Shown: in pieces, positions 21,127 to 27,062 of the stretch | Layout of the letters: every line of letters begins with the position of its first letter | Position numbering within the stretch: the stretch's first letter is position 1 | Source: Methanobacteriota archaeon | Lineage (GTDB): Archaea > Thermoplasmatota > Thermoplasmata > Thermoplasmatales > Aciduliprofundaceae | Reading direction: 5' to 3' | Assembly: GCA_013154005.1 (NCBI GenBank) | Contig: JAADDK010000048.1 | Span: forward strand, 1-35,682 | Length of the DNA stretch: 35,682 nucleotides | Program-made: the position numbers and the translations under genes | Notes under the pieces: generated by a model | Seen by the model: only the letters and a program-made list of their open reading frames with translations | Databases searched by the model: none | Told to the model about the DNA's origin: nothing

Positions 21127-23958
21127 ATGGATTTCAAAGAAATAGAGAAAAAATGGCAGAAGCGCTGGCAGGAAGCCCATGCGTTTGAACCAGATGTGGG
21201 CAGGGGTAAAAAATTCTTCCTGACTGTGCCGTATCCGTACATGTCCGGCTCGCTTCACATAGGGCACGGCAGAACGTTCACCATTGGAGATATTATTGCG
21301 AGATTCAAGCGTCTTGAAGGCTACAACGTTCTGTTTCCCATGGCGTTTCATGTGACTGGCACGCCGGTGCTGGCCATAGCAGATGCGATACGCAACGGCG
21401 ATGAAAAAGTTCTCACGTTATATCGCGATTATTTGAGAATTTACGAATCTGATGAGAAAAGGGTGGAAGAGCTGCTCCGCTCGTTCGTAGAGCCTGAAAA
21501 TATCGCCAATTATTTTGCAGAGAAGGCAATTGAGGATTTTCTGAGCATGGGCTACTCCATCGACTGGCGCAGAAAATTCAATACCGCCGAGCCGATATAC
21601 AACAGGTTTGTGGAATGGCAGTTCAAAAAGCTATACGAAAAAGGTGTGATAAAGAAAGGAAAGTACCCGATTACGTTCAGCCCGGTTGATGGTAATCCTG
21701 TGGGCGAAGATGACATTGCGGACGGAGACACTGACAAAGTCTCGATTATGGAGTTTACCGCCATAAAGTTCGGGTACGAGGACGGATATCTGGTGGCCGC
21801 CACGCTGCGCCCGGAGACAATATTCGGTGTGACCAATCTCTGGATCAATCCGGAGGGTGAGTACTGCAAAGTTCACGTGAACGATGAGATATGGTATATA
21901 TCCCGCGAGGCGGCTGAGAAATTAAAGTATCAGAAAGAGGGTGTGAGCGTGGAAAAATGCGTGCCGGGCACATATTTCATAGGCAAGTTTGCAAAAGAGC
22001 CGGTGCACGGAAGAGAAGTGCCCATTCTGCCGGCGGAGTTTGTGGACGTGGATAATGCCACGGGAGTGGTGTATTCTGTGCCCGCTCATGCGCCCTACGA
22101 TTATCAGGCACTGGAGGATTTGAAAAAAGATGCGGCATATATGAAAAAATTCAATCTGAGCGAAGAGATGGTGAAAAAAATCGAGCCGATTAAAATCATA
22201 GACATAAAAGGCTACGACATGCCTGCCCGGGACATATGCAAGAAAATGGGAATTACAAATCAAAACGACCCGCGGCTGGAAGAGGCTACCCAGGTAATTT
22301 ACAAAGATGAGTTCTATTCAGGAGTGCTCAACGAAAAATGCGGAGAGTTTGCAGGGATAAAAATCAAGGAAATCAAAGATGAGGTGAAGACATGGCTCAA
22401 AAATATGGGACGTGGCGATGTGTTCTATGAGACTTCACGCAAAGCGGTCACGCGCAACGGGCACAAGGTCATCGTGGCGGTGCTGCAGGAGCAGTGGTTC
22501 ATTGACTACTCGCAAAAATGGTGGAAGGAACTCGGACATAAGGCAGTGGAGCGCATGCTCTTCTATCCCGAGAAGTACAGAGAGATGATGCATGGCATAA
22601 TTGACTGGCTCAATCGCAGACCCTGTGCCAGAAAGCGTGGGCTGGGCACGCGTTTTCCGTGGAATAAAGAATGGATTATAGAGAGCCTGAGCGATTCCAC
22701 CATTTATATGGCGTTTTACACGGTGGCGCACATAATACGTGGCTCAAATATAAAGCCGGAGCAGCTCACCGAGGCGCTTTTTGATTACGTGTTCCTTGGG
22801 ATTGGCACCTTGGAAGAGGTTAGCGAAGAGACCGGGATACCCATCGACGTGATTGAGAAAATGCGCTCGGAATTCACATACTGGTACCCCAATGACCAGC
22901 GGCACACGGCACCCGCGCACATGAGCAATCATCTCGCGTTCTTTATAATGCATCACACTGCGATATTTCCCGAAGAGCACTGGCCCGGAGGTATCACGCT
23001 AAACGGATTGATGATTCGTGAAGGTGCAAAAATCTCGAAGAGCAAGGGCAACGTTATCCCGCTGGCGCATATATCCTCACGATACGGCGTGGACCTGTTC
23101 AGGCTGTACTGTGCAGTGGCATCGGACCTTGACACCGTTATGGACTGGAAAGAGAGCGAGGTGGCGTCGCTGCGCAGAAGATTTGAGCGTCTTGCAACCA
23201 TACTTGAAGAGAGTCTGAACAGCGAGACCCTCGCCGAGAAGAATCATTATGACCGGTGGCTTCTCTCGCGGTTTTATCGCAGATACAGTGAGAGCATCGA
23301 GATGTTCAGAGGCATGCGCATCAGAGACGCAATGCTCAACATGCTTTTCCATTTTATGAACGATTTGCGCTATTATGAGAAGCATGCAGGCGAGGAGCGG
23401 AGAAAGAAAATAGTGCGTGAGATAATGGAGGACTGGCTCAAAATACTCACTCCCGTGATTCCGCATCTCACCGAGGAGTTCTGGCACAGGCTCGGCCATG
23501 AGAGTTTCATATCTCTGGAAACGCTATCACCGCCCAGAGAAGAGTATATTGACCTTCAGATTGAGAGGGAAATGGAGTATGTGGATAACGTCATAGAGGA
23601 TATTCGCGAGATTCTGGAAGTGGCCAGGCTCCAGCCCACCAAAATATACATTTACACCGCGCCAGACTGGATGTGGAAGGTGTTCGATGCGATAAAAAAT
23701 GCCACGCCGAAAGATGCCATGCGCCTTGCAATGCAGAGTGGAGTTGATGTGAACAAGGGCGAAATAGCCAAATTCGTTAAAAGAATGCTCAAAGAAAAAA
23801 TTCAATATATCACGCTGAATGAGCAGAAGGTGCTGGAGCGCGAAAAAGATGTAATAGAACGGGAAATCGGTGCGAAGATTGAGATTAATGCCGAGTACGA
23901 CCCGAAGCATAAGCGCAGTTTAGCGCTGCCACTCAAGCCGGCAATCTACGTTGAGTGA
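21127..23958 (+). CDS. leuS: Leucyl-tRNA synthetase, archaeal/eukaryotic type
   Basis: Charges tRNA-Leu. Class I signature HIGH is at 44-47 (SGSLHIGHGRTF) and the KMSKS loop is KISKS at 635-639. The editing (CP1) domain is present between them, with TLRPETIFGVTNLWINPEG. WFIDYSQKWW and the TAPAHMSNHLAFFIMHH region are typical of the archaeal/eukaryal form. At 943 aa it is complete. ATG 21127 has an AT-rich TAAATTTTTTTATT element about 25 nt upstream. It is followed 40 bp later by tRNA-Ser. Confidence 0.96.
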   Translation: MDFKEIEKKWQKRWQEAHAFEPDVGRGKKFFLTVPYPYMSGSLHIGHGRTFTIGDIIARFKRLEGYNVLFPMAFHVTGTPVLAIADAIRNGDEKVLTLYRDYLRIYESDEKRVEELLRSFVEPENIANYFAEKAIEDFLSMGYSIDWRRKFNTAEPIYNRFVEWQFKKLYEKGVIKKGKYPITFSPVDGNPVGEDDIADGDTDKVSIMEFTAIKFGYEDGYLVAATLRPETIFGVTNLWINPEGEYCKVHVNDEIWYISREAAEKLKYQKEGVSVEKCVPGTYFIGKFAKEPVHGREVPILPAEFVDVDNATGVVYSVPAHAPYDYQALEDLKKDAAYMKKFNLSEEMVKKIEPIKIIDIKGYDMPARDICKKMGITNQNDPRLEEATQVIYKDEFYSGVLNEKCGEFAGIKIKEIKDEVKTWLKNMGRGDVFYETSRKAVTRNGHKVIVAVLQEQWFIDYSQKWWKELGHKAVERMLFYPEKYREMMHGIIDWLNRRPCARKRGLGTRFPWNKEWIIESLSDSTIYMAFYTVAHIIRGSNIKPEQLTEALFDYVFLGIGTLEEVSEETGIPIDVIEKMRSEFTYWYPNDQRHTAPAHMSNHLAFFIMHHTAIFPEEHWPGGITLNGLMIREGAKISKSKGNVIPLAHISSRYGVDLFRLYCAVASDLDTVMDWKESEVASLRRRFERLATILEESLNSETLAEKNHYDRWLLSRFYRRYSESIEMFRGMRIRDAMLNMLFHFMNDLRYYEKHAGEERRKKIVREIMEDWLKILTPVIPHLTEEFWHRLGHESFISLETLSPPREEYIDLQIEREMEYVDNVIEDIREILEVARLQPTKIYIYTAPDWMWKVFDAIKNATPKDAMRLAMQSGVDVNKGEIAKFVKRMLKEKIQYITLNEQKVLEREKDVIEREIGAKIEINAEYDPKHKRSLALPLKPAIYVE

Positions 23959-24754: not shown

Positions 24755-25492
24755 TTAGGCGTATATGGCGTTGCTTTCCAGCTCCGCAGCCTTAGATTCC
24801 ACAATTTCCGGCAAATCTCTCAAGTAGATGCTTTCAAATTTCTCTTTCAGAACGTGGGCTGTAAAATCGGCAAGCTGCCTTACCATACTGGCGCCTCTGC
24901 TGTACATGCGGTTGTATGCGGTGGTTATGCTCATATCTTTGAACTTCAGAAGTTCATCGCTATCAAATATCACATATGTGCCCAGTTCTTCTCTTTTTAT
25001 GAGTTCTAACGCTTCCAGGGCCCGGGCCCGGCGCTCTTTCTCGACGGAAAACGGCATGATTACAAACGCCATCATGGGCTTGGTAGTGGTTCTCTTCATC
25101 ATGCGCATGGTCTCTATCATACCACCGGTTCCCATTCCACCACCCAGGGCACCAATCAGCACCACGGCATCTGCAGAGTCGATTTCGTCTCTCAACAGCT
25201 TTTCAGAGCGGGAGATGACATACTCTGCCACCTTTGCCTCTCCCGCAGTATCACTGTGAATTCCCATAACCTCCTTACCCAGTCGCATCTTCTTATCAAC
25301 CTTCAGTCCACCAACCTTCTCATCCACATTCACTGCGATTACCTTCACACCGGTAATCCCTCTGGAGGCTATGTATTCTGCCATTCTCCCTCCGGCACCG
25401 CCGAAGGCAAAAACCTTGATTCGCGGTTCCACACCCATCTCTTCGTACATTATCTCCCGTATTTTTTCAACCATCTCATCATTTTTTCGCAT
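24755..25492 (-). CDS. Minimal FtsZ/tubulin-like GTPase-domain protein
   Basis: A 245-aa protein aligned by eye to the FtsZ GTPase domain. T1 is FAFGGAGGRM (28-37), T2 VNVDEK, T3 DTAGEAKVAE, and the tubulin signature T4 is GALGGGMGTGG (114-124). MPFSVEKERRARALEALE matches the segment after T5. The helix H7 region (TAYNRMYSRGASMVRQLADF) is followed by SIYLRDLPEIV where FtsZ has the catalytic T7 loop INxDFADV, so the key Asn and Asp are not conserved. The C-terminal activation domain of FtsZ (about 120 aa) is absent. It may bind GTP without forming normal filaments. ATG 25492 has GAGGTGAT just upstream. It is downstream of an RHH regulator, 29 bp apart. Confidence 0.82.
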   Translation of the reverse strand: MRKNDEMVEKIREIMYEEMGVEPRIKVFAFGGAGGRMAEYIASRGITGVKVIAVNVDEKVGGLKVDKKMRLGKEVMGIHSDTAGEAKVAEYVISRSEKLLRDEIDSADAVVLIGALGGGMGTGGMIETMRMMKRTTTKPMMAFVIMPFSVEKERRARALEALELIKREELGTYVIFDSDELLKFKDMSITTAYNRMYSRGASMVRQLADFTAHVLKEKFESIYLRDLPEIVESKAAELESNAIYA

Positions 25493-25521
25493 CCCATCAC
25501 CTCGGCATACCCATTTAATTT

Positions 25522-25917
25522 TTATCGTTTTTTGACTCGTATGCCCCCGGATATCCGGAGACTTTCATCAGGATACACGGACCGTACAAGTTCAGTATAT
25601 TCTTTGAGGATTTTTGTAAGAATCCCCTGCTTAAGACACTCCCGCAGAATGTATGTGATTGCATCCTGCATATCCCTGAAATAGCCATATTCTACATACT
25701 CCTCCAGCCCCAGAAGTATGGGATCTGGATTCTCTGCGTTTATTGCCGTTTCGGGCACTCTGCTAATTTCCTCCTCATGTGCCCTGCGTATGTATTCCAT
25801 TATTACCTGTCTGACAAACTCCGAGCGATTATGAAACTCGGGGTGCCTGGCTATGAAATCATCAATCTCCTCCAATTCCACATCGTTCAGTCTCAATGTT
25901 ATTCTGGCATCACTCAT
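25522..25917 (-). CDS. Ribbon-helix-helix (CopG-like) DNA-binding protein
   Basis: A 131-aa protein. The N-terminus is a classical RHH: strand ARITLRLN, helix VELEEIDDFIARHP, then RSEFVRQVIMEYIRR. The second half (EEYVEYGYFRDMQDAITYILRECLKQG) looks like a second, degenerate RHH, so a single chain may form a pseudo-dimer or a dimer of tandem motifs. It lies upstream of the FtsZ-like gene on the same strand and its promoter contains two palindromes, which suggests autoregulation. Regulator of transcription or a DNA-binding adaptor are both possible. Confidence 0.85.
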   Translation of the reverse strand: MSDARITLRLNDVELEEIDDFIARHPEFHNRSEFVRQVIMEYIRRAHEEEISRVPETAINAENPDPILLGLEEYVEYGYFRDMQDAITYILRECLKQGILTKILKEYTELVRSVYPDESLRISGGIRVKKR

Positions 25918-25935
25918 GGTCCCACCTGTTTCTAT

Positions 25936-25967
25936 ATGACATGTATGTCATTGAAGTATATATACTT
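25936..25967 (-). promoter_or_regulatory. RHH operon promoter with two adjacent palindromes
   Basis: ATGACAT-GT-ATGTCAT (25936-25951) is an inverted repeat of 7-bp arms with a 2-bp centre. Immediately beside it AAGTATATATACTT (25954-25967) is a perfect 14-bp palindrome that contains the TATA box. Transcription towards the RHH gene would start at about 25935, so a protein bound to the first dyad would block the start site. The RHH protein is the natural candidate to bind it. Confidence 0.65.
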
Positions 25968-25985
25968 TTCCACAGTTAATTTTTT

Positions 25986-26066
25986 GATGTCATACACAAA
26001 TCACAGATGGTAACAGAAAACAGCAATTTGACATACATATGGTGGACTGTCACACGGAACATATGT
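25986..26066. repeat. Cluster of TGTCA/TGACA half-sites upstream of the RHH/FtsZ-like operon
   Basis: Beyond the main dyad, half-sites related to it recur: GATGTCATAC (25986-25995), TTGACATACAT (26028-26038) and TGTCACAC (26048-26055). ACATATGT (26059-26066), a palindrome, follows. The spacing is irregular. The stretch contains no gene (188 bp between the RHH start and the SCP2-like stop) and may be an extended operator or centromere-like site. Confidence 0.45.
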
Positions 26067-26105
26067 GTGTTACACAATTACATAGTACTTGTGTTAAGTA
26101 ACAAC

Positions 26106-26435
26106 TTAACGGAGTATTTCACCTATGAGAAGCTTGTCCATCAGTTTGGCTTTTATCTTAATTTTCTTAGCGAAATATGCTGTCAGAGCGTCTTCTTCCT
26201 TATTGAGTATCCTCAAGAAAGTATCTGTGGTTGTGCTTACCACAATATCCGCTTTTACATCATCTCCCTGCTCAATATCACTAAGCTGCCCGTTCCTCAG
26301 CACGGTATAGTAATTGCCATCATCTTCAAAAGAAATAAGTATCACACGCTCCAGATCCTTAATCTTCTCTTTTTTCTTACTCTCGGATTTATTAAACTTA
26401 GTTACCAGTTCCTGTAATTTTTCTTGGATTTCCAT
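26106..26435 (-). CDS. SCP2 sterol-binding-domain-like protein
   Basis: A small protein of about 109 aa resembling stand-alone archaeal SCP2-like domains, which bind lipids in a hydrophobic tunnel. Seen are the strand pairs VILISFEDDGNYYTVLRNGQL and VKADIVVSTTTDTFLRIL, then NKEEDALTAYFAKKIKIKAKL, the pattern of the fold's later part. The N-terminus is a charged helix (KKKEKIKDLE). The ligand is unknown. ATG 26435 is chosen over GTG 26444 because GAGGTGA lies 5 nt upstream. It starts 10 bp after the adenosyltransferase stop, so the two are co-transcribed. Confidence 0.75.
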   Translation of the reverse strand: MEIQEKLQELVTKFNKSESKKKEKIKDLERVILISFEDDGNYYTVLRNGQLSDIEQGDDVKADIVVSTTTDTFLRILNKEEDALTAYFAKKIKIKAKLMDKLLIGEILR

Positions 26436-26445
26436 ATTTCTCACC

Positions 26446-26958
26446 TCAAAATTCTATACCCTCCCGGGCTAAAATGCCTTTTCTAAAGTAATGCTTAACT
26501 TCTCTCATCTCAGTTACAAGGTCTGCTATCTGAACTATTTCATCAGGTACATACCTGCCGGTTAGAACTATTTCAGTGCGCTGTGGACGCGATTTGAGCA
26601 TATCTAAAATATCATTTACATCCAGTAACTTATAGTTAAGCGCCACATTTATTTCGTCCAGAACCAGCAGATCATAATCACCAGATGCCATTTTCTCACG
26701 GGAAAGTTTCAATCCTGCTTCCGCAAGTTCTATATCTTCCTTTCGTGGATTTTTTTTGTTTACAAACTTATTGGTTCCGAAAGAATATACTTCTATACCC
26801 AGCTTTCTTGCAGAAATCTGCTCTCCATACCCATTATCTGGCTTCATAAACTGCACTATACACACCTTTTTTCCTCGTCCAGCCGCACGCATGGCAAGTC
26901 CAAAAGCTGCCGTGGTTTTACCCTTGCCATTTCCGGTATAGACATGAATATAACCCAT
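26446..26958 (-). CDS. cobA: Corrinoid (cob(I)alamin) adenosyltransferase, CobA/CobO type
   Basis: Adenosylates cob(I)alamin or its precursors using ATP to make the adenosyl cofactor. The P-loop TGNGKGKTTAAFGLAMRAAGRGKKV starts at residue 8; VCIVQFMKP, DLLVLDEINVALNY and RPQRTEIVLTGRYVP are all family hallmarks. About 170 aa is typical. ATG 26958 gives the usual MGYIHVYTGNGKGK start. ATG 26985 adds nine residues and lies 25 nt from a TTTTTTATC box, so a longer leaderless product is also possible. The gene sits in an operon with the SCP2-like protein; no other cobalamin genes are visible. Confidence 0.92.
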   Translation of the reverse strand: MGYIHVYTGNGKGKTTAAFGLAMRAAGRGKKVCIVQFMKPDNGYGEQISARKLGIEVYSFGTNKFVNKKNPRKEDIELAEAGLKLSREKMASGDYDLLVLDEINVALNYKLLDVNDILDMLKSRPQRTEIVLTGRYVPDEIVQIADLVTEMREVKHYFRKGILAREGIEF

Positions 26959-27062
26959 TATGTAGCCCTCATGAAAGTCGTCCATAAAAACATTGAGTTT
27001 TTTGAAGTTTGATAAAAAACTCCAATTTTAAAATTTTTATACTCTTCTACTATTATCCATTT

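Follow-up and report, generated by a model that had tools for sequence, protein, structure and literature searches.

A ribbon-helix-helix regulator paired with a half-length FtsZ across Thermoplasmata: likeness to, and departure from, cdrS-ftsZ2

TubZRC pairs a winged-helix TubR with TubZ, a full-length tubulin that polymerises; the NTPases of ParR/ParM and of the RHH-ParA systems are actin- or Walker-type and do not have the tubulin fold. The cdrS-ftsZ2 operon of Halobacterium and Haloferax joins a ribbon-helix-helix (RHH) gene to a tubulin gene and is reported to be conserved across archaeal genomes (PMC7439475, PMC8406309). Tubulin_2 proteins (PF13809) carry N/C-terminal extensions and are sparsely distributed, according to PMC9871819, which treats them and other divergent archaeal paralogues as divergent prokaryotic tubulin relatives; in this last respect they resemble the protein studied here. 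With ParR/ParM and the RHH-ParA adaptors our locus shares an RHH protein with upstream repeats, and with TubZRC a DNA-binding protein, a tubulin-fold GTPase and upstream repeats, but it differs from TubZRC in having an RHH protein, no T7 loop and a chromosomal location. The resemblance to CdrS-FtsZ2 lies in the gene order, with a tubulin-superfamily gene directly downstream of an RHH regulator, in the homology of the RHH proteins, in boxes upstream of the promoters and in a spread over many archaea. Yet FtsZ2 is full length, with both T7 and a C-terminal domain, whereas our tubulin has neither; the haloarchaeal CdrS model spans 61 positions and a single RHH, whereas our RHH protein has two modules; and the box is different. 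The original prediction had taken the union of an RHH protein and a tubulin-type GTPase to be new, a claim forestalled by cdrS-ftsZ2, as PMC7439475 and PMC8406309 make clear. A Thermoplasmata half-length FtsZ with an RHH gene was not found described in the available portions of PMC7439475, PMC8406309, PMC7617429, and PMC9871819; its undescribed status is provisional, most subscription papers and all supplements lying beyond the literature search.

The window, that is, the whole stretch of DNA analysed (35,682 nucleotides), is one contig of the 1.64 Mb genome, 94% complete, of a deep-sea archaeon. Named records whose loci match closely belong to DHVE2 group archaea and Aciduliprofundum (NCBI lineage Thermoplasmatota); a search with the RHH alignment retrieved 16 named loci, and a first search of genome contigs using the tubulin-like protein as query gave no matches. 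Both genes have the coordinates, frames, and order originally proposed (table 1), with the RHH gene directly upstream, and chromosomal housekeeping genes surround them. The SCP2-domain and cobalamin adenosyltransferase genes upstream are kept in 11 of 12 loci of the family only. Outside Aciduliprofundaceae (f1) the gene neighbours vary, with the exception of a leucyl-tRNA synthetase gene, which 11 of the 23 class loci carry close to the pair; since most flanking genes are unconserved there, the linkage is specific to the RHH/half-FtsZ pair. The presence of the synthetase gene near the pair in the window and among class loci L204-L222 possibly reflects an ancestral gene order.

Table 1. Features of the RHH/half-FtsZ locus, in window coordinates
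Feature	Position	Strand	Basis or remark
Leucyl-tRNA synthetase	21127-23958	+	Near the pair
half-FtsZ, tubulin/FtsZ GTPase domain only, 245 aa	24755-25492	-	Pfam, NCBIfam, structure matches, predicted fold
RHH regulator, 131 aa: N-terminal ribbon-helix-helix and second RHH-like module; CdrS relative	25522-25917	-	Profile comparisons
Promoter/operator region, SCP2-domain gene to RHH start	25918-26105	-	
Perfect dyad ATGACAT-GT-ATGTCAT between TATA and start codon; probable operator	25936-25951	-	Sequence
TATA element preceded by AAAAGT; probable archaeal BRE/TATA	25954-25969	-	Position conserved in Aciduliprofundaceae
Box GTATGACA, reading TGTCATAC on the plus strand, some 30 bp ahead of TATA	25988-25995	-	Kept in all f1 promoters
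Box copy with one mismatch, GTATGTCA	26029-26036	-	
Box copy with one mismatch, GTGTGACA	26048-26055	-	
SCP2-domain gene	26106-26444	-	Upstream of the pair
Cobalamin adenosyltransferase gene	26446-26985	-	Upstream of the pair

The protein encoded downstream, here called half-FtsZ, belongs firmly within the FtsZ superfamily. It scores 54.7 bits against Pfam Tubulin PF00091, above the curated cut-off of 33, and matches FtsZ structures (E=4e-14); its predicted fold (pLDDT 84.7, pTM 0.80) aligns with FtsZ in Foldseek over some 194 columns (E=7e-13). Against TIGR00065 (ftsZ) it reaches 64 bits, below the curated cut-off of 295, so it is not an FtsZ equivalog. The motifs T1 (GGAGG), T3 (N-x-D), T4 (GGGMGTG), and T5 (PFSVE) are present. 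The loss of the T7 loop, already proposed originally, is borne out by sequence and predicted fold alike, and the protein also lacks the entire C-terminal domain: in the model, helix H7 extends to residue 223 and is followed by one more helix before the chain ends. Some guanine-side residues of this copy are also lost (N replaced by S in T6; the region of the H7 Asp), leaving its affinity for GTP uncertain.

For the RHH protein, Pfam matches stay under the cut-off (RHH_1, E=0.015), and the top NCBIfam match, CdrS NF058555 (E=1.6e-5), is likewise under its curated cut-off. Profile comparison of window-type RHH proteins with those of canonical RHH-ftsZ loci nonetheless gives 97.4% (hhalign, E=1e-11) with both RHH modules covered, and the profiles thus mark the window protein as a homologue of CdrS. 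A canonical pair exists elsewhere in the source genome (contig C19, L005/L119), where an RHH gene of 119 aa overlaps a 343-aa FtsZ with T7; the pair in the window thus represents a second and distinct version. In total, the genome holds seven tubulin-family genes. The seventh (L122, G000:C111, 3771-4544, minus strand) encodes 257 aa without the T7 motif, has T4 altered to GLGGVVGTG and no adjoining RHH gene.

The original prediction had staked itself beforehand on the two genes being conserved as neighbours, and they are indeed kept together across Thermoplasmata. Loci of 26 families of the class, picked by RHH gene match alone, contain the pair in every family, scattered genomes excepted; as the sample consists of families with an RHH match (f10, f18, and f29, for example, are without one), we do not claim the pair to be universal. 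Within the source family, 13 of 18 genomes encode half-FtsZ at E below 1e-56 with an adjoining RHH gene. Four of the five genomes without the pair are 70-87% complete; in the fifth, the close relative G015 (99% complete), neither half-FtsZ nor a pair-type RHH gene was found. The same pair recurs in further loci across the order and in loci drawn from twenty more families of the class, while in G020 (family f4) only the canonical type was found. The RHH gene lies immediately upstream of half-FtsZ: 63 pairs fall within 400 bp, with a median gap of 2 bp and many 4-bp overlaps, and the gap in L220 is 605 bp. In other classes of the phylum, nine of the ten tubulin-bearing loci have an RHH gene ahead of a T7-bearing full-length FtsZ, the exception (L233) being a 361-aa tubulin without the T7 motif.

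Scored as N-[LIVM]-D-x-x-D, the T7 motif occurs in none of 64 RHH-linked half-FtsZs, against 14/15 RHH-linked full-length FtsZs and 12/14 unlinked tubulins. Outside Thermoplasmataceae the nucleotide-pocket residues (T1 GG, T3 N, T4 GG..G, T5 PF..E) are nearly invariant across the class. In an unrooted tree without Thermoplasmataceae rows, half-FtsZs form one clan against all full-length FtsZs (100/100 support); with those fast-evolving rows included, the placement is unclear owing to long branches. In Thermoplasmataceae T4 is degraded (e.g. GGNFSQA replacing GGGTGTG), though the profile of their half-FtsZs still matches FtsZ (E=1e-8). A PF00091 search gave no match in eight genomes of 97-99% completeness. 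In seven PF00091-less genomes (L089, L090, L092-L094, L105, L114) the RHH gene is retained, and the ORF after it is about 155-180 aa long; compared with tubulin by hhalign, the partner ORF of FtsZ-less genomes stayed below 1%, with no homology detected, and its model (pLDDT 41) was too poor for use. The Cuniculiplasma-type partner does align with Thermoplasma half-FtsZ in profile comparison (85%, E=6e-6).

The dyad and repeated half-sites first noticed upstream of the pair are real, and they exceed chance. In the entire window TGTCATAC occurs exactly once; it is present in all ten non-redundant Aciduliprofundaceae promoters of the RHH gene, with 11 matches against 0.22 expected from dinucleotide shuffles. 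The core GTATGAC/GTCATAC gives 17 matches upstream of the f1 RHH genes against 0.41 expected (10/10 promoters), and 22 against 0.43 in other families (14/18). GTCATAC boxes often fall between -31 and -49 relative to the start codon; in three cases they form a perfect dyad. Genome-wide, the 9-mer TGTCATACA occurs eight times against five for its reversed pattern, which is no enrichment over background, so that no wider regulon is shown, and a search for paired TGTCATAC within 30 bp found none in the source genome; nor did family f3 or Thermoplasma show GTCATAC boxes at the promoters of their full-length ftsZ genes. A related but different box, TTGTCNGACAAA, stands at the canonical RHH-ftsZ pair and at an unlinked ftsZ promoter of the same genomes, and has few occurrences per genome, mostly at tubulin promoters. 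One of them (L162, G009:C2:48321) is flanked by an SMC-like gene and a gene for a membrane protein, a possible further target of CdrS-type regulators. Exact GTATGACA is found beside the TATA element of the unlinked ftsZ promoter in five genomes of the window's genus; in the source genome (L123, G000:C66, upstream of 3749, plus strand) it is accompanied by TTGTCAGACAAA downstream, an arrangement conserved in relatives. This ftsZ promoter is a candidate shared target of CdrS-type regulators, and the shared box hints at crosstalk. A scan for sigma-70 promoters and terminators was uninformative, the host being an archaeon.

How should such a pair be read? The original prediction favoured a segregation cassette of the TubZRC kind, with RHH adaptor, tubulin motor, and centromere, and the three-part layout with repeated boxes upstream would suit it. 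However, an NTPase without T7 would lack TubZ-type filament dynamics, the setting is chromosomal, and tblastn against 72,556 plasmids returned no match to the window pair. The boxes, moreover, are few and confined to the promoter, with no longer array, and the layout is identical to that of the known cdrS-ftsZ2 operon. We consider a partition function highly improbable, and rejected it on the loss of T7, the chromosomal setting, and the lack of plasmid relatives. That the locus is an ordinary canonical cdrS-ftsZ2, merely fast-evolving in the source strain, would agree with CdrS as the top curated RHH match and with the identical gene order; but the coexistence of a canonical pair in this and other f1 genomes, the separate clan of half-FtsZs, the uniform absence of T7, and the differing promoter box make it quite improbable. 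Scarcely better placed is the idea that half-FtsZ polymerises as a cytoskeletal element through a T7-independent contact, for which the predicted 35-residue helix 189-223 and helix 227-244, in the place of the C-terminal domain, might serve. Across the class this tail shows little conservation, and no tubulin-fold filament is known to us that forms without the T7/C-terminal face.

The strongest rival holds half-FtsZ to be a filament-end cap: its intact nucleotide face would receive T7 from a genuine FtsZ subunit, nothing could then add onto a protein devoid of T7 and C-terminal domain, filaments would be blocked or shortened, and the RHH protein would set the dose. A pocket kept class-wide in a protein that has lost T7 and C-terminal domain is the pattern expected of a one-sided subunit, and a cap suits the families that keep the pocket. 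Family f3 also has a full-length ftsZ, in divergent orientation, some 4-6 kb away from the pair; this holds for each of the nine loci whose stretch reaches that far (L050, L055, L095, L100, L108-L110, L112, L124). Conversely, T4 has decayed in Thermoplasmataceae genomes that still have FtsZ, and a partner ORF still follows the RHH gene where no FtsZ was found, albeit one not recognisable as tubulin. A cap is possible but rather doubtful.

We give about an even chance to another reading, in which the pair is related to cdrS-ftsZ2 but diverged and specific to Thermoplasmata, and half-FtsZ is a probably non-polymerising, GTP-responsive partner of the RHH regulator; a GTP-controlled regulator had been the fallback of the original prediction, and on this point we judge it right. 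The CdrS-like double-RHH protein would bind GTATGAC/GTCATAC at its own promoter and set the level of the operon, an autoregulation that we infer from the conserved boxes. Half-FtsZ, to judge from the conserved pocket, should bind GTP; with T7 and the C-terminal domain gone, it would be unable to elongate filaments or to complete a neighbour's catalytic site, and it may instead act by contact with the RHH protein. Expression of the operon would then track GTP or division state, as perhaps would division genes with similar boxes, their promoters being putative RHH binding sites on motif likeness. In Thermoplasmataceae the GTP signature has decayed and the RHH pairing has been retained; it is because the pairing outlives the signature there that we favour a GTP-responsive RHH partner. 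More tentatively, and with considerable doubt, we suggest a history in which a duplicated FtsZ became part of a transcription regulator, as a subunit that senses GTP and does not polymerise, with pseudo-GTPase decay in Thermoplasmataceae.

CdrS-FtsZ2 is one of the few known regulatory links in the timing of archaeal division. The pair adds a second RHH operon, spread over a class some of whose lineages have no detectable FtsZ, and its own FtsZ presumably cannot polymerise by the known route. It offers a defined protein pair, a defined DNA box, and an either/or choice between regulator partner and FtsZ cap. Were the regulatory reading true, a tubulin-fold protein would have left the cytoskeleton for gene control.
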